A stretch of 35,092 nt of DNA, taken from the NCBI GenBank assembly GCA_947169235.1, contig CAMVOY010000026.1, positions 1-35,092 of the forward strand, read 5' to 3'. A program made the position numbers and the translations under genes. The DNA is from an uncultured Lachnospiraceae bacterium. Its GTDB lineage: Bacteria; Bacillota; Clostridia; Lachnospirales; Lachnospiraceae. This document shows positions 10,296 to 22,430 of this stretch, piece after piece. Numbering within the stretch: position 1 is the first letter of the stretch; each line of letters begins with the position of its first letter. The notes under the pieces are model-generated. The model searched no databases. It had not been told where the DNA came from and worked only from the letters and a program-made list of their open reading frames with translations.

Positions 10296-10736
10296 TTATA
10301 CTCGTCCGTGTCGATAACTAACTAACTCATCAATTTCTTTCTGCTCGATCTGATTTTGTTCCTTGACAAAATCTTCGAATGCGTGCTCTCTTAATTTCTC
10401 AAAGGTTTTGCGTTCTTTCATCGCCTCATTAAGCTTCTCTCTTGCGATCTCAACATCTCTCGCGCACTTAATGACTACGAGGTGCTGCTCTTTTACGTAG
10501 ACCTTGAGTATCTCCACAGCGTCCTCTTTTTTCTTTATCTCCATCACGTCGAGAGACTCGGCGAGTATGTTCTTCAGATCCTCTTCCGCATCTGATTCTC
10601 TCTGACGCAGTCTTTCTTCTTCGTCCTCTGCTTCATGAAGTCTCGCATTGGCCTGTGAGTATTCGTTTTTTGCCTGCTCTTCGAGCTTTTCCTTCATGTT
10701 GAGGATGTTCTGAAGAGGGAATATGAATCTAGCCAT
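10296..10736 (-). CDS. fliJ: Flagellar export chaperone FliJ
   Basis: A 146-residue, almost entirely helical, highly charged protein (FIFPLQNILNMKEKLEEQAK at the N-terminus) with a two-stranded coiled-coil pattern, as expected for FliJ, the stalk-like subunit inside the FliI ATPase ring. The length matches the family. The Shine-Dalgarno is weak (GGTGATG), unlike that of most neighbours, and the start lies just downstream of a large hairpin element, so its translation may be unusually controlled. Confidence 0.85.
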   Translation of the reverse strand: MARFIFPLQNILNMKEKLEEQAKNEYSQANARLHEAEDEEERLRQRESDAEEDLKNILAESLDVMEIKKKEDAVEILKVYVKEQHLVVIKCARDVEIAREKLNEAMKERKTFEKLREHAFEDFVKEQNQIEQKEIDELVSYRHGRV

Positions 10737-11159
10737 ATGTCATCACCATTTTTTCCGAAAAAACGTCTGGTCGGACAGCTTTATATGTCTGTGACGGCAC
10801 GCTTGCGCTTTTTTCTTGGACGTAGCGGTGCATGGCAGCAAAATACGCTGCCTACGCACCGACGTCCAAGACACATCCGTCACAGTTACATATTTAAGCT
10901 GTCCTCCGACGGTTTTTTCTGCTTATATCGCTGTTGATGTCACGTATAGTGAGCGTACTTATTGCACTCTATCCGAACGGTTATGATTGATATAGTTAAT
11001 TGCAACTCCTCTCAGAGCGCCGTCGGATTGTCTGAGATTGTCACCGCGGGGGATGTATCTTTAACGTCGTTGCGCAGCGCGGGTAGTTTCCGCGCGCACA
11101 ACGTGACGTTAAAGAAAAAAGCGAAAGCGTGCCCCCGCGGACAACTCAGATCAATCCGA
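10737..11159. other. Gene-free 423-nt gap between fliI and fliJ
   Basis: No coding signal. It is filled by two large structured elements in opposite orientation (10757-10919 and 11022-11160) separated by about 100 nt in which I see nothing recognisable. This gap interrupts an otherwise tightly spaced export-gene block. Confidence 0.75.
10757..10919 (+). repeat. Structured palindromic element, copy 1 (plus orientation)
   Basis: Nested stems from outside in: GAAAAAAC/GTTTTTTC; GTCGG/CCGAC with ACAGCT/AGCTGT; P1 CTGTGACGG (10789-10797) with CCGTCACAG (10877-10885); internal loop with box A CACGCTTGCGCTTTTTT (10798-10814) opposite ACACAT (10871-10876); P2 CTTGGACGT (10815-10823) with ACGTCCAAG (10862-10870); a 2-nt AG bulge; then CGGTGC/GCACCG and GGCAGC/GCTGCC closing a 7-nt loop. 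Both ends carry T6 runs on their respective strands, so it could also terminate transcription, including ahead of fliJ. Confidence 0.8.
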
Positions 11160-11160
11160 C
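11022..11160 (-). repeat. Structured palindromic element, copy 2 (minus orientation)
   Basis: Read on the minus strand: outer GTCGGATTG/CAATCCGAC, P1 CCGCGGGGG with CCCCCGCGG (11132-11140/11044-11052), box A CACGCTTTCGCTTTTTT (11115-11131) opposite ATACAT (11053-11058), P2 CTTTAACGT with ACGTTAAAG (11106-11114/11059-11067), a CA bulge, CGTTG/CAACG and GCGCGG/CCGCGC. The core from P2 through ACATCC is 64 nt, the same as copies 1 and 3. It starts at the last base of the fliI stop codon. Confidence 0.8.
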
Positions 11161-12512
11161 TAGGCCTCGACAGTAGTCTCATCCGTATCATCAGAACCGT
11201 CATCAAAAATCGCTTTCATCTGAGCAACGATATCGTCAAAGTCGAACTTCTCATCCGTCCCCTGCTTAAGGAACGAGTTACATGCATCGATCTTAGAGAT
11301 AGCGTAGTCGATGCTTTTATTGGAACCGGCGCGATATGCACCGATATTTATCAGATCCTCCGCGTCGCGATAGGTCGCAAGAACTTCTTTCATCTGACCT
11401 GCGACTGCCTTGTGTTCTTTTGTCGCAACCGCGGACATGACACGCGAGATACTCGCAAGTACATCGATCGCGGGGTAGTGATTCTTCTGCGCCATATTAC
11501 GTGATAAAACGATATGACCGTCGAGGATACCTCTGGCGGTATCGGCGATAGGCTCGTTGAAATCATCACCATCGACAAGAACGGCATAAAGACCGGTGAT
11601 GGAGCCCTTGTCGGAGTTTCCGGCGCGCTCCAAAAGCTTCGGCATCTCCGAGTAAACACTTGGCGGATAGCCTCGTGATACGGGCGGCTCTCCCGATGCC
11701 AGTCCGATCTCACGCTGCGCCATGGAAAAACGTGTCAGGTTGTCCATCATCAGAAGGACATCCTTTCCCTGATCACGGAAATACTCGGCAATAGCCGTGG
11801 CGGTCTTCGCCGCCTTATTACGAATAAGAGCAGGACGGTCAGAGGTCGCGATCACGACAACCGATCGCTTCATACCCTCCGGGCCAAGATCCCTCTCGAT
11901 AAACTCCCTAACCTCACGTCCACGCTCTCCGATCAGAGCGATAACGTTTATATCCGCTTTAGTGTTTCGGGCAAACATACCCATCAGCGTAGACTTTCCG
12001 ACACCGGAACCTGCAAAAATACCTATACGCTGACCTTTTCCGACTGTGATCAGGCCGTCAACAGCCTTCACTCCCAAAGGAAGTGCATCAGTGATGATCT
12101 CACGCGCCAGAGGATCCGGCGGATCAGCTTCAACCGAATACTTCGGTGACTCATCGGGAAGCCCCTCGAAGCTCATCGGATTTCCGACTCCGTCCAAAGA
12201 CTGTCCCAAAAGATCATCAGTAACCTTCACCATCAGAGGTGCACCCGTGTTCTCGACAAAGCTCCCGAGTCCCACGCCCTCTACGTCATCGTAGGGCATT
12301 AAAAGTACTCTGTCATCACGGAATCCTACAACCTCAGCCTTGACAGGATCAGGTCTTGCAGCAGAATAAATCAAACAAAGGTCATTAAGCTTCGCCTCCG
12401 GTCCAATGCTCTCAACCGTCAGCCCCACGACCTTTGCTACTTTTCCCAGCGCTCTCACATAGCTTTTTTCAACAAGCGCCTGATATTTATTCATGGAAAA
12501 CGGTACTTTCAT
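11160..12512 (-). CDS. fliI: Flagellar export ATPase FliI
   Basis: Hexameric F1-beta-like ATPase that energises flagellar protein export with FliH and FliJ. The 450 residues include Walker A GSGVGKST (168-175), the type III signature GERGREVREFIERDLG, Walker B VLLMMDNLTRFSMAQREIG, and the EPPVSRGYPPSVY segment. The C-terminus is acidic. GGAG lies 5 nt before the ATG at 12512. The stop TAG abuts a structured repeat element. Confidence 0.97.
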   Translation of the reverse strand: MKVPFSMNKYQALVEKSYVRALGKVAKVVGLTVESIGPEAKLNDLCLIYSAARPDPVKAEVVGFRDDRVLLMPYDDVEGVGLGSFVENTGAPLMVKVTDDLLGQSLDGVGNPMSFEGLPDESPKYSVEADPPDPLAREIITDALPLGVKAVDGLITVGKGQRIGIFAGSGVGKSTLMGMFARNTKADINVIALIGERGREVREFIERDLGPEGMKRSVVVIATSDRPALIRNKAAKTATAIAEYFRDQGKDVLLMMDNLTRFSMAQREIGLASGEPPVSRGYPPSVYSEMPKLLERAGNSDKGSITGLYAVLVDGDDFNEPIADTARGILDGHIVLSRNMAQKNHYPAIDVLASISRVMSAVATKEHKAVAGQMKEVLATYRDAEDLINIGAYRAGSNKSIDYAISKIDACNSFLKQGTDEKFDFDDIVAQMKAIFDDGSDDTDETTVEA

Positions 12513-12535
12513 AAATACTCCATCCGATTCCGTAA

Positions 12536-13429
12536 CTATGTAAGCATTCTTATCGCCATAAGCATATCTTCAAGTTGCGTATGTATCCCTGCATCGAGCA
12601 TCTGATTATCCGTCTCTATGATGCAGTCATTTTTCTCCATCCCATCCTGAGGCATGATATCTATCGTCACGCTCTCGGGTACCAATTCAAGCAGTTCTTT
12701 TTTTCGCTGCTCTACTGTCGGAGCATCCTCAGGTGATATCCTAACGATGATACGCTCAGCGGTCTTTCTTACATCCTCCATGCCTGCTTTTATCAGATGC
12801 ATGATCAGATCCTGCTGTTCCTCAATGACAACTCCCGTGAGCTTCTCCATAAGGTCACACATCACTCGAACGAACTTCGGTTCCAGCTCAGCTACCAGGT
12901 CCTCGTACTCCTGCTCGAGCTGCGTTCTCTGGCTCTCGATCTCCTCTCGGATCCTTGACACCTCTTCGTTCCCGGCCTGTATCCCTTCTTCCCTGCCGGC
13001 CTCAAAACCTTCCTCATGAGCCTGAGCTCTCACATCATCAGCCTGACTTCTGGCGTCGATCACTATCTGATCTGCCTGCTCTCTTGCTGACTCGATTATC
13101 TCATCGGCCTCAGCCTGAGCTGCTTCCATTTTTTCTTTAAGATCGGCGGTGATGTCTACTGCGGGTATACCTTTCTCGAATCCGTCATCCTCTTCCTCGA
13201 ACTCCGGTTCCTCTTCATCACCGCCAATCTTAACGACAGATTTATTAACCTGAAAAATCTCCTCGATGGAAAGGCCTTTGGCAAGCTCTGCCTCAACCTC
13301 GGCAGCGTCACGAACAACGACCTTCTGTTTATGCTCCATAGGCGTAAAGGCGCCCGGCTTCTCATAAGAGACCTTCCGGGCATCCTTTCCCTGCAAATTT
13401 ACAAACGGGTATTTAACAATATTAGACAA
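12536..13429 (-). CDS. fliH: Flagellar assembly protein FliH
   Basis: Negative regulator and stator-like partner of FliI. The 297-residue protein has an acidic N-terminal half, a long Glu/Gln/Ala coiled coil with the glycine-spaced helix AHEEGFEAGREEGIQAGNEE, and a C-terminal FliI-binding domain. The start appears to be TTG at 13429, with GGAGGTGA inside the fliG end; the next in-frame Met is about 30 residues in. It overlaps the fliG stop by 8 nt. Confidence 0.88.
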   Translation of the reverse strand: MSNIVKYPFVNLQGKDARKVSYEKPGAFTPMEHKQKVVVRDAAEVEAELAKGLSIEEIFQVNKSVVKIGGDEEEPEFEEEDDGFEKGIPAVDITADLKEKMEAAQAEADEIIESAREQADQIVIDARSQADDVRAQAHEEGFEAGREEGIQAGNEEVSRIREEIESQRTQLEQEYEDLVAELEPKFVRVMCDLMEKLTGVVIEEQQDLIMHLIKAGMEDVRKTAERIIVRISPEDAPTVEQRKKELLELVPESVTIDIMPQDGMEKNDCIIETDNQMLDAGIHTQLEDMLMAIRMLT

Positions 13430-14447
13430 TTATCTCGTCACCTCCACCACGGGAAATAACAATCTCAGCGCTATCCTCAAGTTTTCTGATAACGTTAACG
13501 ATCTTCTGCTGAGCCTCCTCAACATCCTTCAGACGTACAGGGCCCATGTATTCCATATCCTCTCGGATCATATCAGCAAGACGTGAGGACATGTTGTTGA
13601 AGATGACGTTCTGAACTTCCTCATTGGCATTTTTAAGCGCAACGGCAAGCTCTGAGTTTTCGACCTCCCTGAGCACACGCTGGATGGAACGGTCGTCGAG
13701 CATGAGGATATCCTCGAACACGAACATCTTTTTTCTGATCTCGTCGGCAAGCTCCGGCTCCTCGATCTCCAAGTTCTCCATGATGTGTTTCTCTGTACCA
13801 CGGTCGACTGTATTGAGGACTTCGACAACGGAATCGACACCACCGACGATGGTGTAATCCTGGCTGACCAAAGACGACAACTTCTGCTCCAATATATTCT
13901 CGACCTCCTTGATGACATCCGGGCTTGTACGGTCCATCATGGCGATACGCTTCGCTACGTCTGTCTGCTTGTCCGGAGTCAGCGCCGAGATGATCGCCGC
14001 CGCCTGCTGGCTCGACAGATACGAAAGGATCAGGGCGATAGTCTGCGGATGCTCGTCCTGAATAAAGTTGAGGATCTGTGATGCCTCTGTCTTTCTGATA
14101 AACTCGAACGGACGAACCTGCAACGATGCAGTCAGCTTTCCGAGCACCTGAGCAGCCTTGTCGTCTCCGAGTGCCTTCTGCAAAAGGTCCTTCGCATATC
14201 CGATACCACCCTCTGCGATATACTGCTGAGCGAGGCAGACCTCATAGAATTCCTCAAGTACCGCTTCTTTTTGCGCGGGTGATACACTTCTTGTATTCGC
14301 GATCTCGAGCGTGAGCTGCTCGATCTCATCCTCCTTCAGGTGTTTGAACACCGTCGCAGCCTTCTCAGGGCCGATGGTGATCAGAAGGATCGCCGCTTTT
14401 TGTATACCATCAAGATCGGTCACCGACGATGATGACTGTGCTGCCAT
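13422..14447 (-). CDS. fliG: Flagellar motor switch protein FliG
   Basis: C-ring protein that couples stator movement to the rotor. The 341 residues contain the N-terminal GIQKAAILLITIGPEKAA block, the middle EHPQTIALILSYL (EHPQ) motif that binds FliM, and the C-terminal charged torque helix region (FEDILMLDDRSIQRVLREV). The ATG at 14447 is 9 nt from GGAGG; a GTG at 14453 is only 3 nt from it and less likely. It starts 2 nt after the fliF stop. Confidence 0.97.
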   Translation of the reverse strand: MAAQSSSSVTDLDGIQKAAILLITIGPEKAATVFKHLKEDEIEQLTLEIANTRSVSPAQKEAVLEEFYEVCLAQQYIAEGGIGYAKDLLQKALGDDKAAQVLGKLTASLQVRPFEFIRKTEASQILNFIQDEHPQTIALILSYLSSQQAAAIISALTPDKQTDVAKRIAMMDRTSPDVIKEVENILEQKLSSLVSQDYTIVGGVDSVVEVLNTVDRGTEKHIMENLEIEEPELADEIRKKMFVFEDILMLDDRSIQRVLREVENSELAVALKNANEEVQNVIFNNMSSRLADMIREDMEYMGPVRLKDVEEAQQKIVNVIRKLEDSAEIVISRGGGDEIIV

Positions 14448-14449
14448 GA

Positions 14450-16087
14450 TCACACACCTCCCCAGTCTTCATTTATCCAGTTACGCAGCAAAAGCGCAAC
14501 CGCCTCGGGATTCTCATCCACGAATTTCTCTATCATGATTCGAGTCTCGGATTTGTCCTCAAGCTCGATCTCCTCAAGAGCAGTTGTATCGTCTCTTGTA
14601 GTCTCCAAAAGATCCTCCACCGAAAGCTCCGGCTCTGTCTCGGTAACCTCAACAGGTGACGTACCTCTGATGATCACGAATATCAACAGCGCCGCGATAA
14701 GGATCGTGAGGAGCACCATGAGATAATTCGTGATATTGTCGAAAAATGATCCGGTCTCAGCCGCCTCATATACAGGCTTGTCATATGCGATCACCTGGAT
14801 GTTTCCTGTGGCGATTCCCGTTGCGGCCGCGATCAGCTCGACAAGTTCATCCTGGTTCTCGAGATCTATACGCGTAGGCTGAGAGTTCTGCTCAACATAG
14901 TTCTCAAAACTTATTTCATCGAGAAGCCCCTGCTCCTGCAGGCTTTCCTCGTGGATCACATTGTAGTGTGTGAGGATGAGACCCATGGATGACTCATCCG
15001 GTACGACGGCACCAACCTCGTACGCGATATTTTTCACGGTCTCATTCGGCAGGTAATCGTACTTGTTAAGGGTTGTTTCCGTATTTGTCTGACCCGATCC
15101 CACCAAAGGATAATCAGTCAGATCACCATTCGAGTCGGTTCCCGGGATTCCGCCCGAACCCGACTGTCCGGTTGACTTGTACTCGTAGGAATGTGAATAA
15201 AGTCCCTGCTCCATTCCTTCGTTCGCGGTATATGTCTTCACCAACTCATCGACCTTGTTCATATCGAACTTGATCGCATTTCGGCTGACCTCGACATCAT
15301 CCCATCCGGCTTTACGGAGCATCTCCTCGACATTTTTCGCGAACTGATTCTGCAGTTTCTGTCGATAATCCGCATTTCCGGTGACAGCGCCACCGAGCGT
15401 GTTATCCTCTTTACTTCCGTAGAGAAGGTTACCCTTTGTATCGGTTATGACGATGTTATCCGTCGTTTTGTTTCCGACCGCATTGGCGATGTAATAAGCG
15501 ATACCCATCGCTACGTTTTCATCCATCTCGTAGCCCTGTTTGAGCTTCAGACTGGCGCTGACAGATGCCTCCAGTCCCTCAGAGAAAATGGTGGTATCAT
15601 CCTCGGGTTTATCGAGAAATACGGTAGCATCCTCCACCCCGTCGAAGGTGAGAAGTCCGGTACGGATCGATGCCTGCAATGCCAGATTTATCTTGGTGGT
15701 ACGTACCTGGGAAGTAGTGGTCATATCCTCTTGGAGGGCATCTTTCCATGACATTCCCGTTTCGTCCGTTACCTGGTTTGCACCCATAACGACTACCGCA
15801 TCTGAGTACTCGTTCTGCTCAACCTTGAATCGAACTCTGTCGGTGGATATAGCCTCTGCCTCATAGGTGACTCCCGCTGCATCGAGCTGCTCACGGAAGC
15901 CGGATGCCGCCTCTGAGTTCAAAGTTACGAGATCAACATAAACAGGTCTTGTAAGCAGATACGCCAAAAGGACGATCGCGAAAAATATCGCGAGCGTCAC
16001 ACAAATGATTATCGTCTTTTGTTTGGTCGTATAGCGATTCCAGAACGCGATTATCTTGTCCCGGATCGCGATAAGTCGATCCATCAT
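14450..16087 (-). CDS. fliF: MS-ring protein FliF
   Basis: Membrane ring and first platform of the basal body. The 545 residues have TM1 at about 25-46, ring-building motifs in the periplasmic region, TM2 at about 454-474, and a C-terminal cytoplasmic tail ending FVDENPEAVALLLRNWI, the segment that docks on FliG. GGAGG lies 10 nt before the first of two ATGs. It is separated from fliE by a 302-nt gap full of hairpins, unusual for these co-assembling partners. Confidence 0.97.
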   Translation of the reverse strand: MMDRLIAIRDKIIAFWNRYTTKQKTIIICVTLAIFFAIVLLAYLLTRPVYVDLVTLNSEAASGFREQLDAAGVTYEAEAISTDRVRFKVEQNEYSDAVVVMGANQVTDETGMSWKDALQEDMTTTSQVRTTKINLALQASIRTGLLTFDGVEDATVFLDKPEDDTTIFSEGLEASVSASLKLKQGYEMDENVAMGIAYYIANAVGNKTTDNIVITDTKGNLLYGSKEDNTLGGAVTGNADYRQKLQNQFAKNVEEMLRKAGWDDVEVSRNAIKFDMNKVDELVKTYTANEGMEQGLYSHSYEYKSTGQSGSGGIPGTDSNGDLTDYPLVGSGQTNTETTLNKYDYLPNETVKNIAYEVGAVVPDESSMGLILTHYNVIHEESLQEQGLLDEISFENYVEQNSQPTRIDLENQDELVELIAAATGIATGNIQVIAYDKPVYEAAETGSFFDNITNYLMVLLTILIAALLIFVIIRGTSPVEVTETEPELSVEDLLETTRDDTTALEEIELEDKSETRIMIEKFVDENPEAVALLLRNWINEDWGGV

Positions 16088-16175
16088 TTAGGCGCAACCT
16101 CCAACTACCATTTGTTTCAAAACTCCCGGGCCTGTATTTGTTCCGGCGGGTACCACCGGATCAACGGGCTTCTCC

Positions 16176-16300
16176 TCACCGCTCTTTCATTCGGCATCTA
16201 CGTCTTCGTGCCCACATCTGTGCTCGAGCGAGCTCGGCACATCTGTGCACACGAGACTCTACTGTTGCCACGCAACAGATGCCTCATGTATGAGCGGTGA
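16176..16300. repeat. Branched hairpin element in the fliE/fliF gap
   Basis: Outer stem TCACCGCTC (16176-16184) with GAGCGGTGA (16292-16300), then GGCATCT (16193-16199) with AGATGCC (16277-16283). Inside, CACATCTGTGC and GCACATCTGTG pair with two mismatches, and CTGTTG/CAACAG (16262-16267/16273-16278) makes a small side hairpin overlapping the inner stem by two bases. The fold is a multi-branch junction. Confidence 0.6.
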
Positions 16301-16381
16301 CGACTTCGTCGTGCGGTACGTCACACACATCCGATTACAAGCAAGCTTGTATCGTCTGTGTTGTGCGTACCTTCGTCGAAG
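16301..16381. repeat. Long hairpin flanked by two mini-hairpins
   Basis: GGTACG (16315-16320) pairs with CGTACC (16366-16371), continuing through CACA/TGTG and CGAT-T-ACAAGC with GCTTGT-ATCG to a 2-nt loop. It is flanked by CGAC-TTC-GTCG (16301-16311) and CTTC-GTC-GAAG (16371-16381). It lies 8 nt downstream of the fliE stop. Confidence 0.6.
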
Positions 16382-16389
16382 CACTAACC

Positions 16390-16716
16390 TTAAAACTGCA
16401 TATTCATAATAGTCTTATACGCTTCGACCACGGTATTTTTTACCGCTGCCGTATACTGCAGTGATACCGTAGCCTTCTGCTGTGCGATCATCAGGTCATG
16501 AAGATTATCAGACTCTCCCGTGGCGCACTTTATCTTCTCTTCCTCAGCCTTGTTGGAGTAGTCGTTTGTCTCTGTGATAAGTCCCATGGCATCATCTAAT
16601 AGTGCCTGAAAGCCCTGGGATTTCTCGGCACGTGTCTGAGGTGCCAGAGGATTGGCCGTCTCGTAACGGCTCACACTCTCAAGTCCCTTGATCGCAGAAA
16701 TATTAGTAATATTCAT
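16390..16716 (-). CDS. fliE: Hook-basal body protein FliE
   Basis: Adaptor between the MS ring and the rod. The 108-residue product shows the family C-terminus TVSLQYTAAVKNTVVEAYKT and the DLHDLM-like segment (NLHDLMIAQQKA). AAGGATGAG precedes the ATG at 16716 with proper spacing; an in-frame GTG at 16722 overlaps this region and is rejected. It lies 72 nt after flgC. Confidence 0.93.
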   Translation of the reverse strand: MNITNISAIKGLESVSRYETANPLAPQTRAEKSQGFQALLDDAMGLITETNDYSNKAEEEKIKCATGESDNLHDLMIAQQKATVSLQYTAAVKNTVVEAYKTIMNMQF

Positions 16717-16788
16717 ATTCACTCATCCTTTACATGTATTCGAGTAAATTAACACCTGTGGTCTCAAATATCATTAAGTTAAAAACTA

Positions 16789-17223
16789 TTACTGGCCGAT
16801 CGAAAGCGCTCTCGTCGCCATGCTCTTTGACGCATTGAGCATAGTCACATTTGCTTCATAAGCACGTGTCGCATCGATCATGTTGGTCATCTCAGTCACG
16901 GTGTTGACATTCGGATACATAACATAACCATCCTCATTCGCATCCGGATGTGACGGATCATAAACCAACGCCCCCTCACTCGGATCCTCAACTATCCTTG
17001 TAACCTTGACACCCTTGCCGATATACTGACCTGCAAGTCCCAGTGTCTCTTTAAAGGTCGGGTATGCTTTTTCCTCGAACACGACCATTTTTCTTTTGTA
17101 TACATTTCCCTTGCCATCTCTCGTAGTATTGATGTTTGCAAGGTTCTCGGATATCGTATCCATACGCAGCTGCTGCGCGGTAAGTCCGGTAGCGCTGACA
17201 TCAAATGCTCCAAATACTGACAT
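16789..17223 (-). CDS. flgC: Proximal rod protein FlgC
   Basis: Rod subunit of the flagellar basal body. The N-terminal rod motif is SATGLTAQQLRMDTISENLA followed by NINTT, and the C-terminal motif is NMIDATRAYEANVTMLNASK. With the ATG at 17223 (MSVFGAF) the protein is 144 residues, the normal size. AAAGGAAG is six bases upstream; longer in-frame starts add an MTRTVVLQNERKMP-like leader with no family support. Confidence 0.94.
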   Translation of the reverse strand: MSVFGAFDVSATGLTAQQLRMDTISENLANINTTRDGKGNVYKRKMVVFEEKAYPTFKETLGLAGQYIGKGVKVTRIVEDPSEGALVYDPSHPDANEDGYVMYPNVNTVTEMTNMIDATRAYEANVTMLNASKSMATRALSIGQ

Positions 17224-17287
17224 AGGCATCTTCCTTTCGTTTTGCAAAACTACTGTTCGTGTCATGTCAAAAACAAACTGTTAAAAA

Positions 17288-17683
17288 TCACTTTCCGCCG
17301 CCGCTTATGGCAGCCTTCAGATCCTGGAACTCATGATTTATTGAAGTCATCAGAGTGTTGTAGCGGATCTGGTTTTTTGCGAGCTCGACATTCTCCGTGG
17401 TGATATCCACGTTGTTGCCGTCCATACGGTAGCTGAGCCCTGCCTGCTCCGTGTAGGTAGTCGCATTCAGATCGGATAAGTCCATCTCCGAAACAGTCTT
17501 GTTCAGATCATCCGTACCCCCGATCGCCCCTATGAGATAAGTCTCGAACTGCACATCCTTGCGCTTATATCCCGGCGTGTCCGCATTTGCGATGTTATTC
17601 GCGAGCACGTCGTTCCTTTTCCAACTGGCATCCGCTGCCTTGTCCAGGACATTCACATAGTTATAAGCTCCTGAAAGAATCAT
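17288..17683 (-). CDS. flgB: Proximal rod protein FlgB
   Basis: First rod subunit and, as in many Firmicutes, the first structural gene of the main flagellar operon. The 131 residues have the rod signature RNDVLANNIANADTPGYKRK and the C-terminal QIRYNTLMTSINHEF helix. AGGAGGG lies 5 nt before the ATG. It follows codY by 69 nt with a terminator-like hairpin between them, and I see no separate promoter in that gap. Confidence 0.95.
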   Translation of the reverse strand: MILSGAYNYVNVLDKAADASWKRNDVLANNIANADTPGYKRKDVQFETYLIGAIGGTDDLNKTVSEMDLSDLNATTYTEQAGLSYRMDGNNVDITTENVELAKNQIRYNTLMTSINHEFQDLKAAISGGGK

Positions 17684-17707
17684 ACCGTCCCTCCTTTCTC
17701 ATTTCTC

Positions 17708-17754
17708 ACAAAAACGCAAAGGCCTTCATGATCTCTCACAAATCCCTTTGCGTT
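17708..17754 (-). terminator. Terminator or attenuator between codY and flgB
   Basis: On the minus strand AACGCAAAGG (17745-17754, containing part of the codY stop) pairs perfectly over 10 bp with CCTTTGCGTT (17713-17722) and is followed by a T5 run. The 22-nt loop is large for an efficient terminator. Confidence 0.55.
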
Positions 17755-18538
17755 ACGAATTCCATTTCTCTTTATAGATACGCTCAAATTCATCATAAGC
17801 GATATCATTCAGTACCTCAATACGAGTACCCTTGACTCCCGCTGACTGTGTACGGATAAGTCTGGCACTCTCAAGCTTGCGAAGAGCATTTACCATCACG
17901 GATCTGGTCACATGATACTCACTTGCCAGCTGTGATGTGATAACCCTGCCGCTCATACCGTCAAGCGAATGAATAACAGCAGCAACAGACCTCTGCTCAA
18001 GATCGGACAGGGTCTTTATCGCTGATGATATAGCTTCTCTCTTGTTCATCTCCTCGCCTGTCTCAGCCAGAAGTGAGGTCGTCATCACGAGACCGATGAC
18101 CATGTTGCAGTACTCACACAGGATGATGTCATCGATGCGGAAGGTCTTGTCCTCACGATACACGAAAAATGTTCCGAGTCTCTCGCCATTCACAAGAGTC
18201 GGAGCTATGAGCGCCGTAAGTCCTTCTGCCTCGTACTCGTCGAGTCCCAAGGTCTCAAGATTTACATTTTCTTTGGTCGAGAGTACGCTTAAAAAGCGGT
18301 CGTTAAGCCGCTCATCCGCGCACGCGCCAAGATCAACATCCTTAAAGCCATCTATACCTCTGACTTCAGGATTCTTATACATACCGAGGATCTTACCCCT
18401 GCGGCTGATAACATATACACTGCTATTCAAAAACCCTCCGACCATCTCACAGATGTCGGAAAAAGCCACCTTCTGACCTCCGGTCTCGGTAAGCAGATGA
18501 TTAACTTTTCGGGTTCTATCCAAAAGCTCAATACTCAT
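17753..18538 (-). CDS. codY: GTP- and branched-chain amino acid-sensing repressor CodY
   Basis: Global nutritional regulator of low-GC Gram-positives. The 261-residue protein has the N-terminal GAF ligand domain (FLNSSVYVISRRGKILGMY) and a C-terminal winged helix with the near-invariant recognition segment SEYHVTRSVMVNALRKLESA (about 206-225) followed by VKGTRIEVLND. Its position directly before flgB resembles Bacillus subtilis and suggests co-transcription with flagellar genes. The Shine-Dalgarno is modest (GAAGGGG, 10 nt before the ATG). Confidence 0.97.
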   Translation of the reverse strand: MSIELLDRTRKVNHLLTETGGQKVAFSDICEMVGGFLNSSVYVISRRGKILGMYKNPEVRGIDGFKDVDLGACADERLNDRFLSVLSTKENVNLETLGLDEYEAEGLTALIAPTLVNGERLGTFFVYREDKTFRIDDIILCEYCNMVIGLVMTTSLLAETGEEMNKREAISSAIKTLSDLEQRSVAAVIHSLDGMSGRVITSQLASEYHVTRSVMVNALRKLESARLIRTQSAGVKGTRIEVLNDIAYDEFERIYKEKWNS

Positions 18539-18567
18539 TCAGCGTATACCCCTTCTGTATCTCTGAT

Positions 18568-18596
18568 ATTTTATCACAAATCTCCAAAAATGACAA
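18568..18596 (-). promoter_or_regulatory. SigmaA-like promoter for codY (and possibly flgB onward)
   Basis: Minus strand TTGTCA (18591-18596), 17 nt, TAAAAT (18568-18573); the -10 lies about 30 nt upstream of the codY ATG. Confidence 0.65.
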
Positions 18597-18612
18597 GACA
18601 TAATCTCATGAA

Positions 18613-20691
18613 TTAAGACTCGTCAGCCTCATCCTTCACCTGCTCAACGTAACCGCATTTTTCATCGGAGCAGGATAATTTACTACCTTTGTAGACCAAT
18701 AGATTTTGGCACTTTGGACACGTTTTGCCGGATGGTCGCTGCCACGTCATAACCTCACACTCAGGGTTGTTCTCACAGCCGTAGTACGGACGTCCCTTAC
18801 GTGTTCTCTTGATAACGATCTCACCACCGCATTTCGGACACTTGACTCCGATCTTTTCATAGTACGGTTTTGTGTTGCGACACTCCGGAAAACCGGGGCA
18901 TGCGAGGAACTTTCCATGCGGTCCGTATTTGATGACCATATTACGTCCGCAGTTCTCACATACTATATCGGTCACTTCGTCGTGAATCTCAACCTTTTCA
19001 AGCGCTTCTTCTGCTCTGTCCACGCTTTCTTTCAGATCCGGATAGAAATTCCTGATGACCGTCTTCCACTCCACGTTTCCTTCCGCGATTCCATCAAGCA
19101 ACGCCTCCATGGTAGCGGTAAAGTTCACATCCACGATACTCGGGAACTCTTCAACCATGATCTTGTTTACCACCTCACCGAGCTCGGTAAGGAATATGTT
19201 CTTTTTCTCCTTGGTGACATATCTTCTCGAGATAAGTGTTGTTATCGTAGGTGCATATGTACTCGGTCTGCCTATGCCCAATTCCTCCAATGCCTTCACA
19301 AGTGAAGCCTCGGTATAGTGCGCAGGCGGCTGAGTAAAGTGCTGTTCATCACGAAGCTCCTTTAACGTCAGCTTCGCATCCTCTTTAAGCTTTGAGAGAG
19401 CAGGATTGTTTTCAACCTTGTCCTCATCGCTCTGATATACCGACAAAAACCCCGGGAAAACGAGCTTTGAGCCGGCCGATGTAAACACATGACCCTTTCC
19501 CGCGATCTTTACTGAGATCGTCTCATACTTTGCAGAACTCATACGGCTCGCCACAAACCTTTTCCAGATAAGCTGATAGAGTCTGTACTGGTCCCTGGTC
19601 AACGAATCCTTGACCTCAGCCGGAGTCAGATCTACATATGTCGGACGGATAGCCTCATGTGCATCCTGGACATTTTTGCCCTGCTTGGCTGTCTGCTCCT
19701 TCTCAATGACATACTCGTCACCGTGGATTTGTCTGACATATTCCTTGCACGCTTTATCAGCTTCGTCTGATATACGCGTCGAATCCGTACGCAGATATGT
19801 GATAAGACCTATGATTCCGTGGCCTTTGACATTTACACCCTCGTATAACTGCTGAGCGACCTGCATCGTTTTTCTGGTCGGATAGTTCAAAACTTTTGCA
19901 CACTCCTGCTGAAGTGTGGACGTGGTAAACGGCAGAGGCGGCTTTTTCATCCTCTCTCCGTTCTTTATCTCCTCTACCTTGTAGGTAGCATTTTTCAGTT
20001 CCTTGAGTACTTTGTCAACTTCTTCCTTTGAAGCGAGCTCATCTTTACCGTTTTTCCCATAATACTTGGCTGTCAGAGGCTTCTTCACACCCGGTACCAT
20101 AAAGTCAGCCTCGAGACTCCAAAACTCCCTCGGAATGAACTCATCTATCTCTTTTTCCCTGTCCGCGATAATCCTAAGCGCCACAGACTGAACTCGTCCT
20201 GCTGAAAGTCCTCTCTTAACCTTTGCCCAGAGAAGCGGCGAGATCGAATATCCCACCATACGGTCCAGAACTCGTCTGGCCTGCTGAGCATCCACGAGTC
20301 CCATGTCGATATCACGAGATTCCTTGAGAGACTGCTTCACTGCGTTCTTTGTTATCTCGTTAAAGGTGATCCTGCTGGTTTTCTTCGGATCCAGATCGAG
20401 TGCCGCGGTCAGGTGCCATGATATAGCTTCACCCTCGCGGTCAGGGTCCGTTGCCAGGAATATCTTGTCAGCCTTTTTGACTTCCTTCCTAAGCGCCGCC
20501 AGTAGCTCTCCCTTACCTCTGATAGTGATATATTTGGGTTCGAAATCATGTTCCGGATCAAAACCCATCTGACTTTTCGGCAAATCTCTTACATGGCCAT
20601 TTGACGCCATTACTTCGTAGTTTTTGCCCAAAAAACGCTGAATCGTCTTTGATTTGGCAGGCGACTCCACGATGATCAGATTTTTTGACAT
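18613..20691 (-). CDS. topA: DNA topoisomerase I (type IA)
   Basis: Relaxes negative supercoils by single-strand passage. The 692 residues begin with a TOPRIM domain (IVESPAKSKTI; acidic DPDREGEAI), have the active-site tyrosine Y299 in GLITYLRTDSTR, and end with three four-cysteine zinc ribbons (C578/581/598/604, C618/621/639/645, C658/661/674/679). Full length. The ATG follows GAGGG. It is framed by a sigmaA-like promoter upstream and the codY promoter downstream. Confidence 0.97.
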   Translation of the reverse strand: MSKNLIIVESPAKSKTIQRFLGKNYEVMASNGHVRDLPKSQMGFDPEHDFEPKYITIRGKGELLAALRKEVKKADKIFLATDPDREGEAISWHLTAALDLDPKKTSRITFNEITKNAVKQSLKESRDIDMGLVDAQQARRVLDRMVGYSISPLLWAKVKRGLSAGRVQSVALRIIADREKEIDEFIPREFWSLEADFMVPGVKKPLTAKYYGKNGKDELASKEEVDKVLKELKNATYKVEEIKNGERMKKPPLPFTTSTLQQECAKVLNYPTRKTMQVAQQLYEGVNVKGHGIIGLITYLRTDSTRISDEADKACKEYVRQIHGDEYVIEKEQTAKQGKNVQDAHEAIRPTYVDLTPAEVKDSLTRDQYRLYQLIWKRFVASRMSSAKYETISVKIAGKGHVFTSAGSKLVFPGFLSVYQSDEDKVENNPALSKLKEDAKLTLKELRDEQHFTQPPAHYTEASLVKALEELGIGRPSTYAPTITTLISRRYVTKEKKNIFLTELGEVVNKIMVEEFPSIVDVNFTATMEALLDGIAEGNVEWKTVIRNFYPDLKESVDRAEEALEKVEIHDEVTDIVCENCGRNMVIKYGPHGKFLACPGFPECRNTKPYYEKIGVKCPKCGGEIVIKRTRKGRPYYGCENNPECEVMTWQRPSGKTCPKCQNLLVYKGSKLSCSDEKCGYVEQVKDEADES

Positions 20692-20729
20692 GTTGGTTCC
20701 CTCGCTTCATTTTTAGAGTTTCGAATACT

Positions 20730-20758
20730 ACCATACAACAAAATTTTTTTTGATGCAA
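20730..20758 (-). promoter_or_regulatory. SigmaA-like promoter for topA
   Basis: Minus strand TTGCAT (20753-20758), 17 nt, TATGGT (20730-20735), about 40 nt upstream of the topA ATG. The hairpin elements lie outside the promoter, on its dprA side. Confidence 0.55.
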
Positions 20759-20856
20759 GAGGAAATTTTCACACGCCTTGTCAAAATGTCTGACAAGCGT
20801 CTGATTTTTCGGAACTTGCCCGACAGAAAAATTTTTTTGACGCTTTCTACTGGTGT

Positions 20857-21014
20857 CTACAAGGGGTCAGACTGTTTGAGCGTATATCTGATCGGGCACG
20901 CTTTCGCTTTTTTCTTGAACGTAGCGGTGCATGGTGGCAAAATACGCCACCTACGCACCGACGTTCAAGACACATCCCGATCAGTGATATACTTCTCAAA
21001 CAGTCTTCCCGTAG
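20857..21014 (+). repeat. Structured palindromic element, copy 3 (plus orientation)
   Basis: Outer AGACTGTTTGAG (20869-20880) with its perfect complement at 20995-21006, extended loosely by GGG/CCC and CTAC/GTAG. P1 CTGATCGGG/CCCGATCAG (20888-20896/20976-20984); box A CACGCTTTCGCTTTTTT (20897-20913) opposite ACACAT (20970-20975); P2 CTTGAACGT/ACGTTCAAG (20914-20922/20961-20969); AG bulge; CGGTGC/GCACCG and GGTGGC/GCCACC. Relative to copy 1, both sides of each changed pair have changed. Confidence 0.8.
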
Positions 21015-21082
21015 TCTTACAGATGCGAGAGACTGAAAGCGTACCGGGATTTCTTAACTATAGCCTGCTGCAAGTCTGGGGA

Positions 21083-21240
21083 GAGGTGGTTCGAGAAGCA
21101 TGTAACTGTCCGGGATGTGTATCATACGTCGTTGCGCAGGCGAGGTTAGGAAACTCGAAGAGTTTCCTTCGAGCCGCACAACGTGACGTATGATAAAAAA
21201 GAGAAAGCGTGCCCGGACAGACATGCACTCGAACCACCTC
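21083..21240 (-). repeat. Structured palindromic element, copy 4 (minus orientation)
   Basis: Minus-strand reading: outer GAGGTGGTTCGAG with its perfect complement (21228-21240/21083-21095), P1 CTGTCCGGG/CCCGGACAG (21212-21220/21106-21114), box A CACGCTTTCTCTTTTTT (21195-21211) opposite ACACAT (21115-21120), P2 ATCATACGT/ACGTATGAT (21186-21194/21121-21129), CA bulge, CGTTG/CAACG. The terminal hairpin is 18 nt longer than in the other copies. It begins 8 nt after the dprA stop. Confidence 0.8.
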
Positions 21241-21248
21241 GACAATAG

Positions 21249-22430
21249 TTACATACGTATAAAATGGTCTCTTGAACTCTCCCTTATATACCGATTCTTC
21301 TTAAGCCTCGTAACTATACGAAGAGTGTTCGCATATGTTCCTTGCGCACTTGCTGCTAATGTAGCTAGGGAAATCGGCGTCTCGTGGATCATTTCAAGTA
21401 TCGATGACTCTTCCGGTGAGAGTCCCGGCAAATTGTCTGACTCATTACGAGGTCTGATATTATAATACTCAAGTATATCATCAGGTGAGATGACAGGAAT
21501 GGCACCCTGACGTATGAGCCGATTACAACCAACTGATAACTCGTCACCGATGCGCCCCGGTATAACAAAAACATCTTTTCCTTGCTCCAGAGCTGCATCA
21601 ACAGTGATGAGTGAACCGGAGCGCTGTCGAGCCTCGACGAGAAGCAGACCGTCAGATAATCCGCTTATGATCCGATTGCGCATGGGGAAGTTCGCAGACA
21701 TCGCTCCGTAATCGGATGGATACTCGCTTATAAGTCCGCCTCTTTGTTTCAGGTCATTATAGATCTTCTCATTGCAACGTGGATAGATGACCTCCACACC
21801 ACACCCGAGTATTGCAAAGGTATCACCGCCTGCCTCAAGCGCGCCGCGATGACTCCAACCATCTACTCCCTTTGCCATGCCGCTGATAACGGCCATGCCC
21901 GCCTGCGCAAGCCTATAACCGAAAAGTCTCGCCATGTCTCTTCCATAAGGGGTACACTCTCTCGCACCGACTATTCCTATCGCCTTCTGATCGGGATCAG
22001 GGAGCCTGCCGAGTACGAAAAGCTGCTCGGGTGCATTTTTCAGGTTTAAGAGTTTTTGGGGATACTCTTTGTCTTTTTTTGTGATAAATCTAACGTCTTT
22101 TTTATTCACCCTTTCATACTCACCATGAATCTTTGTTCTGCCCGACGGCTCCGCCAGTTTCTCCATGACAGAATGAGGGATATTATACCTTCTTCTTTTG
22201 GATTTTTCTTCTATATTATAACCCATATAATCACGAATACTAATCTGCTTATCTCCTGACTTCATAATAAATCCAAATCTGTATTTCCTGATACGGGTTT
22301 CAACCTCTTTTTGGGAGGAAAGAAAAAGAGAAACAATATCACCAAATATCTCCAGCAGGATCTGCTTACCCACGGGGCCTATACCGACAATCTGGGCTAT
22401 CCAAAAATCTGCTATTTTTTCAATATCCAT
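21249..22430 (-). CDS. dprA: DNA processing protein DprA/Smf
   Basis: Loads RecA on incoming single-stranded DNA during transformation. The 393-residue protein has an N-terminal SAM/HhH-like region, the Rossmann-like core (IGIVGARECTPYGRDMARLF, ISGMAKGVDGWSHRGAL, FPMRNRIISGLSDGLLLVEA, GSLITVDAALEQGKDVF), and a C-terminal winged helix. GGAGGTGAG precedes the ATG, and the start overlaps the comM stop by one base. With comM it forms a competence pair; whether this organism transforms cannot be told from here. Confidence 0.95.
   Translation of the reverse strand: MDIEKIADFWIAQIVGIGPVGKQILLEIFGDIVSLFLSSQKEVETRIRKYRFGFIMKSGDKQISIRDYMGYNIEEKSKRRRYNIPHSVMEKLAEPSGRTKIHGEYERVNKKDVRFITKKDKEYPQKLLNLKNAPEQLFVLGRLPDPDQKAIGIVGARECTPYGRDMARLFGYRLAQAGMAVISGMAKGVDGWSHRGALEAGGDTFAILGCGVEVIYPRCNEKIYNDLKQRGGLISEYPSDYGAMSANFPMRNRIISGLSDGLLLVEARQRSGSLITVDAALEQGKDVFVIPGRIGDELSVGCNRLIRQGAIPVISPDDILEYYNIRPRNESDNLPGLSPEESSILEMIHETPISLATLAASAQGTYANTLRIVTRLKKNRYIRESSRDHFIRM

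Follow-up and report, generated by a model that had tools for sequence, protein, structure and literature searches.

The four long hairpins in the window, the whole 35,092-nucleotide stretch of DNA analysed here, belong to a dispersed family of elements in which the shape of a single strand is conserved and the sequence of the arms is free. The arms are almost purely Watson-Crick, copies are present in some species and absent from others, cores have been replaced, and at two sites the same core lies in opposite orientation. With moderate confidence, we regard the family as a non-autonomous, structure-recognised dispersed foldback element of Lachnospiraceae that is reshuffled by template switching or conversion.

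Four hairpins in the window and their relatives

Each of the four copies formed one long hairpin (Table 1), and for each of them 0 of 200 shuffled sequences folded as well. The first-pass annotation had delimited the copies and proposed their common fold, and the sequences agreed with it. P1 (CTGTGACGG, CCGCGGGGG, CTGATCGGG and CTGTCCGGG) and P2 (CTTGGACGT, CTTTAACGT, CTTGAACGT and ATCATACGT) were indeed perfect 9-bp helices of four different sequences each, and, as described, three copies have a core (P2 to ACATCC) of 64 nt and the fourth has one of 82 nt. Copies 1 and 3 lie on the forward strand and copies 2 and 4 on the reverse strand, thus forming two inverted pairs. A covariance model searched against the window at E values up to 1 matched exactly these four copies. 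A 19-mer, with up to two mismatches allowed, had 38 matches genome-wide versus one for the reversed control, so the family is not a product of chance.

Table 1. Hairpin elements of the window, their parts and neighbouring genes
Feature	Position	Strand	Remarks
Element 1, whole hairpin	10757..10919	+	antisense to fliJ, adjoins fliJ start; −83.6 kcal/mol; fold z −10.4
Element 1, model match	10783-10893	+	126.2 bits
Element 1, P1 5' arm CTGTGACGG	10789..10797	+	3' arm 10877-10885
Element 1, 17-nt box	10798..10814	+	
Element 1, mini-hairpin GCTTGCGC	10801-10808	+	reads GC-GCAA-GC on − strand
Element 1, P2 5' arm CTTGGACGT	10815..10823	+	3' arm 10862-10870
Element 1, distal hairpin	10824..10861	+	2-nt AG bulge, AAAATAC loop
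Element 1, ACACAT strand facing box	10871..10876	+	
Element 2, whole hairpin	11022..11160	−	at fliI stop codon; −82.5 kcal/mol; z −9.9; 119.9 bits
Element 2, parts	box 11115-11131; P1 11132-11140 with 11044-11052; P2 11106-11114 with 11059-11067	−	
Element 3, whole hairpin	20857..21014	+	topA-dprA gap; −79.3 kcal/mol; z −10.8; 126.1 bits
Element 3, parts	box 20897-20913; P1 20888-20896 with 20976-20984; P2 20914-20922 with 20961-20969	+	
Element 4, whole hairpin	21083..21240	−	dprA side of topA-dprA gap; −88.5 kcal/mol; z −14.1; 98.3 bits
Element 4, parts	box 21195-21211	−	long distal hairpin (82-nt core)
fliJ (context gene)	10296..10736	−	TIGR02473
fliI (context gene)	11160..12512	−	TIGR03497
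topA (context gene)	18613..20691	−	TIGR01051
dprA (context gene)	21249..22430	−	TIGR00732

The family extended well beyond the window. The covariance model derived from 63 copies (64 copies with a 38-nt distal part, minus one duplicate) found 57 copies in this genome (G000), 60 in G011 and 53 in G002, and at least one copy was present in 19 of the 39 genomes of the genus, its own included, with 0 to 60 copies per genome. Copies sharing one core were merged, which gave 99 sites; 85 of these were parsed, and one (L045) was a false match. In a sample of the order, elements occurred in at least 19 of 295 genomes and at least 10 of 129 genera, all within Lachnospiraceae; these counts are lower bounds, because at most 12 candidates per genome were scored and stricter filters were applied. 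The sole control for the specificity of the model was provided by the 276 of 295 order genomes that had no match. The asymmetric boxes (17 versus 6 nt, the TG bulge, the 2-nt bulge and GNRA) recurred in other genera. The elements measured 139-163 nt as first delimited and about 250 nt when windows of approximately 290 nt were folded, the longer folds possibly taking in chance pairs. Plasmids and phages searched with one core gave no match; among viral contigs, the first and third patterns gave none and the second gave one copy.

The first-pass annotation had matched the family to no RNA or repeat family, and Rfam 15 returned no match in the window at the gathering threshold. At a loose threshold, a search over one pair of elements and eight loci of relatives yielded sub-threshold matches only. 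The real Rfam match at those loci was an S10 leader located outside the elements.

A GNRA mini-hairpin and arms probably matched at the DNA level

The 17-nt box, initially taken to be unpaired, in fact holds a mini-hairpin of 2 bp whose TYNC loop reads GNRA on the opposite strand. Of 120 aligned copies, 119 had GNRA on the complement (63/63, 42/43 and 14/14 in three alignments, compared with 3.5, 2.5 and 0.8 expected from shuffling), as did 18 of 20 additional parsed copies. Six GNRA variants were represented, with compensating closing pairs, and no GNYA loop occurred among the aligned copies; in copy 4 of the window, one pair of the mini-hairpin is broken (GCTTTCTC). In the modelled fold, P1, P2 and the mini-hairpin make a three-way junction. 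With the GNRA loop on the opposite strand, it is probably the complement of the strand first described that folds. The restriction to GNRA looks more like RNA than DNA, which counts against the foldback reading favoured here.

Covariation was strong over the 63 copies, upholding the earlier description of covarying folded elements: 96.5% of the cells were paired versus 71.5% after shuffling, 32 of the 36 pairs had changed on both sides, and 549 cells were doubly changed versus 139.6, with slid structures collapsing. Slid structures scored lower on each of the five covariation measures. Four measures also lay above every one of 500 shuffles, and 14 of the 500 reached the fifth; kinship among the sequences inflates such counts. 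As a comparison for the nature of the pairs, RNase P RNA from this genus replaced the SAM riboswitch, which had no match there. G-T accounted for 37 and A-C for 9 of 2268 cells, and for 8 and 7 without two columns that contributed most of the raw G-T excess. Any G-T was present in 10 of 36 columns and any A-C in 7 of 36, versus 29/91 and 4/91 in RNase P RNA, where 8.9% of the cells were G-T and 0.2% A-C. Since G-T is rare and hardly above A-C, unlike in RNase P RNA, the arms appear to be matched at the DNA level. The raw counts by themselves, 37 versus 9, speak against a purely DNA-level reading. Among 99 elements, the strand first described had the better fold of the two in 32, compared with 28 of 29 for RNase P; the complement was slightly better folded (mean 2.7 kcal), with no G.U excess.

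These data bear on the possibility that the elements are dispersed structured-RNA genes or cis-elements read from the complementary strand, with the GNRA three-way junction as a functional core acting in trans or on mRNA. An RNA-type loop motif, nearly invariant on one strand and closed by compensating pairs, is what this explanation predicts, and both the matching boxes in other genera and the better folding of the complement favour it. Neither strand, however, shows the G.U excess of RNase P, and the elements lack the other signature of a structured RNA, a functional strand that folds clearly better. Both orientations relative to co-directional genes were common (43 sense and 30 antisense, of 101 sites), and inverted pairs, opposite orientations at one site and core replacement would be unusual for RNA genes. 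Given also the lack of an Rfam match, we regard the RNA explanation as unlikely. Of the first-pass annotation's proposal, the family of folded, covarying elements is upheld: the outcomes named there as refuting it did not occur, since far more than four copies exist, covariation is strong and Rfam has no match. The pairing in the stems appears unlike the product of plain compensatory selection of the RNA type.

Presence, orientation and core replacement at orthologous sites

The elements were extragenic, single or paired between chromosomal genes, in both orientations, and their neighbours were housekeeping genes. Some outer stems have a T-run and resemble terminators; many elements are antisense or intercistronic. 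Cores were compared at 92 of 101 box sites, nine having been dropped at parsing. In 31 orthologous pairs of the same orientation, core identity was at least 97% in 13, 90-97% in none and below 90% in 18; these pairs came from 18 loci and are thus not independent. At the eight loci with replaced cores, the outer arms were unchanged at four and also different at the other four. Cores that had not been swapped were more conserved than their own flanks, and the same core alleles recurred at unrelated loci. In two cases the same core was found in opposite orientation (L016/L080, 100% identical; L001/L086, 97.4%).

Between fliI and fliJ, G000 carries a pair and G016 an element of a different subfamily with unrelated arms, while the other 25 of the 26 relatives with both flanks aligned have a short junction. 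In G011 the empty junction may have arisen by deletion, given the resemblance between the fliI tails of G000 and G016. The fliP-fliQ site is filled in G002, a remnant in G011 and tight in G000. Several apparently empty sites were remnants, so loss can be seen at least as readily as gain. Most of the compared genomes are drafts in many contigs, in which palindromes can be misassembled. L269 is a core-less hairpin at an orthologous site. An 8-bp direct repeat borders the stretch that distinguishes it from the filled L039; the repeat may be either a duplication or the scar of a deletion. No consistent target-site duplication was seen in 12 comparisons of filled and orthologous sites.

The elements could also be passive long quasi-palindromes, that is, terminator-like hairpins grown and homogenised by replication template switching, with neither mobility nor a trans-acting factor. 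The closely matching arms with few wobbles, the terminator-like outer stems, the core-less hairpin and the lack of detectable SbcD (see below) are all compatible with this explanation, and template switching is reported to make the arms of inverted repeats alike and to flip the spacer between them (PMC8604942). Homogenisation would, however, erase the asymmetric boxes that recur across genera, and neither the sharing of core alleles by unrelated loci nor the presence of elements where relatives have tight junctions fits a passive origin, which we consider improbable. Host-selected DNA motifs, such as protein-binding or replication/chromosome-organising sites, are very improbable: nearly invariant boxes, conserved unswapped cores and housekeeping neighbours would suit them, but the distribution among congeners is patchy, and copies are remnant or absent at orthologous sites.

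Search for a mobilising factor

A driver gene beside the elements was rejected, as no Pfam family occurred more than twice among the 80 flanking ORFs scanned, all of them from G000, out of 119 gathered. The 1-kb inverted pairs of G063 and G100, rejected as candidates for an autonomous copy between two hairpins, enclose a gene resembling a deacetylase of a polysaccharide cluster. The Y1 transposase (PF01797) was absent from all 13 genomes with at least five copies, this one among them, and present in 3 of 6 genomes with one to four copies and 7 of 20 with none; a Y1/RAYT mobiliser was consequently rejected. Reverse transcriptase (PF00078), which might have indicated a retron, a group II intron or another retroelement RNA, was rejected likewise: none was found in G000, and there was no positive association (4 of 13 genomes with at least five copies, namely G011, G002, G027 and G024, versus 12 of 20 without elements). 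SbcD, a subunit of the palindrome nuclease, was undetected in the three element-richest genomes, a correlation that makes palindrome tolerance testable. Arms were no shorter in SbcD hosts (medians 64.5 and 65 bp, for 18 and 123 copies, respectively).

Proposed mechanism and comparison with known systems

For a foldback element recognised by structure, a putative trans-acting factor would recognise and handle the folded single strand, which could be an RNA intermediate or ssDNA that replication exposes. Template switching or conversion of DNA, acting inside one hairpin or between several, would keep the arms complementary and also invert or exchange the cores. The host would tolerate elements where hairpins do little harm, such as downstream of stop codons and in the gaps at terminators or between cistrons. 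More tentatively, the family might represent a new class of mobile DNA defined by shape only, in which a single strand folds around the GNRA three-way junction, is recognised by an as yet undescribed factor, and excises and replaces the cores of resident hairpins; sites would keep their arms and cores would circulate like cassettes, a form of hairpin-into-hairpin homing.

If the foldback interpretation is correct, this is a bacterial repeat family inherited by shape rather than sequence that swaps its core at fixed sites, a case for which we found no precedent in the literature searched; our searches likewise returned no description of such elements. The family would offer a natural system for telling whether covariation is caused by selection of the RNA type or by homogenisation at the DNA level, which matters because pipelines based on covariation only could mistake such DNA elements for RNAs.

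In integrons, the folded single strand of attC is the substrate, and its structure is kept while the sequence varies, as in the elements described here; attC sites belong with an IntI integrase and a cassette array. The present elements do not lie in cassette arrays, and their interior carries GNRA and long distal hairpins. MITEs, ERIC and Correia-type repeats are short, non-coding foldbacks dispersed between genes that keep their sequence or terminal repeats, whereas our elements have freely varying arms and swapped cores, at some loci within unchanged arms. The differing arms and the lack of a consistent duplication in the 12 comparisons also argue against a MITE of a DDE insertion sequence. 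Template switching at quasi-palindromes would explain both arm homogenisation and spacer inversion; in the part of the source consulted it is described for short repeats with small spacers, and whole-core exchange among dispersed loci does not feature there (PMC8604942). REP/BIME/REPIN sequences with their RAYT (TnpA_REP, Y1 HUH) resemble our elements in being non-autonomous palindromes that are scattered outside genes, frequently form inverted pairs and are tolerated beside genes, and the REP structure is thought to be recognised as ssDNA, according to the portions of these reports consulted (PMC3116915, PMC2817692, PMC6006769). The REPs described in the latter portion are 21-65 nt long, carry a GT[AG]G foot and lie near Y1 genes (PMC6006769); the elements measure at least 139 nt, have free arm sequences with no constant foot among the flanks listed, contain the GNRA three-way junction, exchange cores and occur at five or more copies only in genomes lacking Y1. 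The STAXI motif, a tandem pseudoknot near DNA-handling genes that is suspected of acting as ssDNA in the section of the report consulted (PMC2864571), is likewise a structure motif from comparative genomics that possibly functions as DNA, whereas the present elements are single hairpins beside unrelated genes.

Distribution of the hairpin family

The sequences and coordinates that the first-pass annotation gave for four structured elements were confirmed in the window. Each copy forms a single long hairpin (139-163 nt by the limits of that annotation) and folds far better than shuffled sequence. The copies make up two inverted pairs: the first occupies the fliI-fliJ gap, the second the topA-dprA gap (flanking genes named from NCBIfam). 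A covariance model with rough E-values, derived from 63 copies in five genomes, matched only these four copies in the window. The proposal of a recurrent family was borne out in the source genome and its relatives, where the search went far beyond four copies: 57 in the source genome (G000), 60 in Lachnospiraceae bacterium P6B14 (G011), 53 in RUG381 (G002), and 23, 19, 18, 14 and 13 in the relatives G016, G008, G023, G010 and G027, respectively. At least one copy was present in 19 of the 39 genomes of the genus, source genome counted. In a sample of the order, scored for at most 12 candidates per genome, the element occurred in at least 19 of 295 genomes and at least 10 of 129 genera, all of the same family. 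Across the source genome, a 19-nt pattern gave 38 matches versus 1 for the reversed control. Rfam showed nothing over the elements (window copies and loci in relatives), one query core had no match in plasmid and phage records, and no description of the family was found in the literature covered, which lay mostly outside subscription journals. IMG/VR contained one copy on one contig, in a region with few ORFs; roughly 1 kb away lies an ORF that may encode a PemK/MazF-type protein. In another genus, the elements at L253, L254 and L256 (genomes G063, G100 and G247) have surroundings that we take to be one shared polysaccharide gene cluster, and in G063 and G100 two elements flank what is presumably a deacetylase-like gene.

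Positions and loci of the elements and related features
Feature	Position or loci	Remark
Window copy 1	10757-10919	
Window copy 2	11022-11160	
Window copy 3	20857-21014	
Window copy 4	21083-21240	
Tip loop with extra small hairpin (example)	21130-21185	window coordinates
IMG/VR copy	L320:1196-1306	38.5 bits
Replaced pairs with 15/15 outer arm	L020/L084; L024 with L041 and L042; L036 with L115 and L089; L103/L095	P1, P2 or tip differ

Architecture of the element

Read inwards, the element begins with variable outer arms, which bear small 3' bulges. Then come P1 (9 bp), the junction and P2 (9 bp, with an ACGT end), followed after a 2-nt bulge by a distal stem of the CGGTGC/GCACCG or CGTTGC/GCGCAACG type; a variable stem closed by an AAAATAC-like loop forms the tip. 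Folding of approximately 290-nt segments around G000 elements gave a median span of approximately 250 nt with 65 bp in the arms (n = 50), values that may include chance pairs.

The 17-nt box between P1 and P2 had been described as unpaired; in fact, it holds an 8-nt mini-hairpin of 2 bp with a TYNC loop, which reads GNRA on the opposite strand. The mini-hairpin with GNRA on that strand was found in 63/63, 42/43 and 14/14 rows of three alignments (119/120), with 3.5, 2.5 and 0.8 rows expected by shuffling. Its loops were GCAA, GAAA, GCGA, GAGA, GGAA and GGGA, and its closing stems GC/GC (109), GT/AC (9) and AC/GT (1). Further parsed copies kept it in 18 of 20 cases, and one of its pairs was broken in window copy 4 and in L102 of G002. 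A longer hairpin takes its place at L268 of G002, as expected if the mini-hairpin is a real helix. The element is thus predicted to be a three-way junction; the strand that folds is probably not the one originally described but its complement.

An additional small hairpin, of the GGAAACTC-TTC-GAGTTTCC type, is present in several tip loops and, in one case (L268), in the box mini-hairpin; the variation in these hairpins is itself matched. The flanks of L026, L019 and L086 show incomplete tandem copies of one of the outer arms, accumulated on a single side of the element.

Complementarity of the arms

The covariation reported for four copies was upheld in 63: 96.5% of cells paired, 32 of 36 pairs had changed on both sides, and 549 cells were doubly changed versus 139.6 after shuffling. 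When the partners were shifted by 1-3 columns, pairing fell to 27-47%. G.U pairs are common in ordinary RNA evolution, and the RNase P RNA of 29 genomes of the genus, whose structure was predicted from the alignment of these RNAs, contained 8.9% G-T and 0.2% A-C (6.7% and 0.2% at variable pairs). The 63 elements contained 37 G-T and 9 A-C among 2268 cells; two columns held 29 of the 37 G-T, leaving 8 G-T and 7 A-C elsewhere. Divergent element sets gave 20 G-T and 16 A-C of 1539 cells, and 8 and 2 of 489. Any G-T occurred in 10/36 column pairs of the elements and any A-C in 7/36, the RNase P values being 29/91 and 4/91. Raw element counts lean to G-T on the strand first described. Since G-T on one strand is A-C on the other, an RNA-type excess is present on neither strand. 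Of 99 elements, only 32 gave the better fold on the strand first described (mean difference to the complement +2.7 kcal), compared with 28 of 29 for RNase P's own strand (-13.9 kcal). With little G-T excess and no strand preference like that of RNase P, the complementarity of the arms seems to be maintained at the DNA level: either the DNA hairpin is the selected form, or one arm serves as the template for its partner. The restriction of the loop to GNRA points the other way, to RNA. Mini-hairpins of the d(GC-GNNA-GC) kind are very stable in DNA too, but the three element alignments contained no GNYA loops.

RNase P RNA itself measured 399-401 nt in the element-rich G000, G011 and G002 (L289, L293 and L285) and 435 nt in G012. 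The remaining 25 full-length matches in the genus spanned 344-375 nt, a difference explained by a longer hairpin in one helix of the longer RNAs.

Occupancy of sites and exchange of cores

Both flanks of the fliI-fliJ junction aligned in 26 relatives; the junction was short in 25 of them, and G016 carried one element there, of another subfamily and with unrelated arms. The tight junction of G011 may itself be a deletion, as G000 and G016 have similar fliI tails. At a site between genes that we take to be fliP and fliQ, G002 was filled, G011 held a remnant and G000 was tight. Other sites showed a half-element, single arms or a core-less terminator-like hairpin (12 comparisons, 8 loci). The stretch distinguishing the core-less L269 from its filled counterpart has the direct repeat TGATATAT at its two ends, which marks a duplication or else the scar of a deletion. 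The 12 comparisons showed no constant target duplication. Together with the core comparisons below, they fit gain, loss and replacement alike.

Orthologous sites were paired by flanking DNA. Among 31 same-orientation pairs, which represent 18 loci and are not independent, the core was at least 97% identical in 13, 90-97% in none and below 90% in 18; in the 13, the flanks were just 85-94% identical. Ten loci showed no change in any comparison, and eight showed replacement in one or more. In four of these eight, a replaced pair kept the outer arm identical at 15/15 positions; at the other four, the outer arms had changed too. The same core lay in opposite orientation at L016/L080 and L001/L086 (100% and 97.4% identical). 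The 92 parsed copies contained 44 P1, 26 P2 and 63 tip alleles; P2 ATCATACGT had 24 P1 and 27 tip partners. Four-gamete combinations numbered three for P2 by tip and one for P1 by P2. Arms were nested inside similar arms at L020/L084 and L046. The genomes are drafts, many in at least 100 contigs, and palindromes can be misassembled, but swaps keeping both outer arms are hard to get in this way.

Genomic setting and candidate helpers

At 101 sites in six genomes (orthologues included, crude ORF calls, 11 unclassifiable), elements between co-directional genes were sense in 43 cases and antisense in 30, with 14 sites convergent and 3 divergent. The neighbours were unrelated: no Pfam family appeared more than twice in a set of 80 ORFs flanking elements of G000. 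Mixed orientation and unrelated neighbours argue against a cis-acting mRNA element with a fixed orientation, and also against a helper gene next to the elements. Among the 39 genomes of the genus, 10 had a Y1 transposase: none of the 13 carrying at least five copies, three of six with 1-4 (G035, G031 and G013) and seven of 20 without elements. Reverse transcriptase, found in 17/39 (4/13, 1/6 and 12/20, respectively), was absent from G000 by family search. SbcD, a nuclease subunit attacking palindromes, exceeded the cut-off in 20/39 genomes and had no match at all in the three element-richest, G000, G011 and G002. Elements occurred in 6/20 genomes with SbcD over the cut-off versus 13/19 others (Fisher p 0.026, Mann-Whitney p 0.030, uncorrected for kinship or incomplete genomes); the SbcD-positive carriers include G016 and G008. 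The association is a lead, not a result.

Proposed mechanism

The most economical account that we infer has two layers, template switching and a trans factor recognising the structure. Template switching would leave unexplained the conserved asymmetric GNRA-bearing boxes across genera and the new sites, and because it fails on both, a structure-recognising trans factor is proposed; an RNA function in its place is less likely on present data. The near-strict complementarity, the inversions and the swaps would be explained by template switching, which, acting between copies as well, could exchange cores. In line with this, PMC8604942 describes DNA polymerase template switching that homogenises inverted-repeat arms and inverts spacers.
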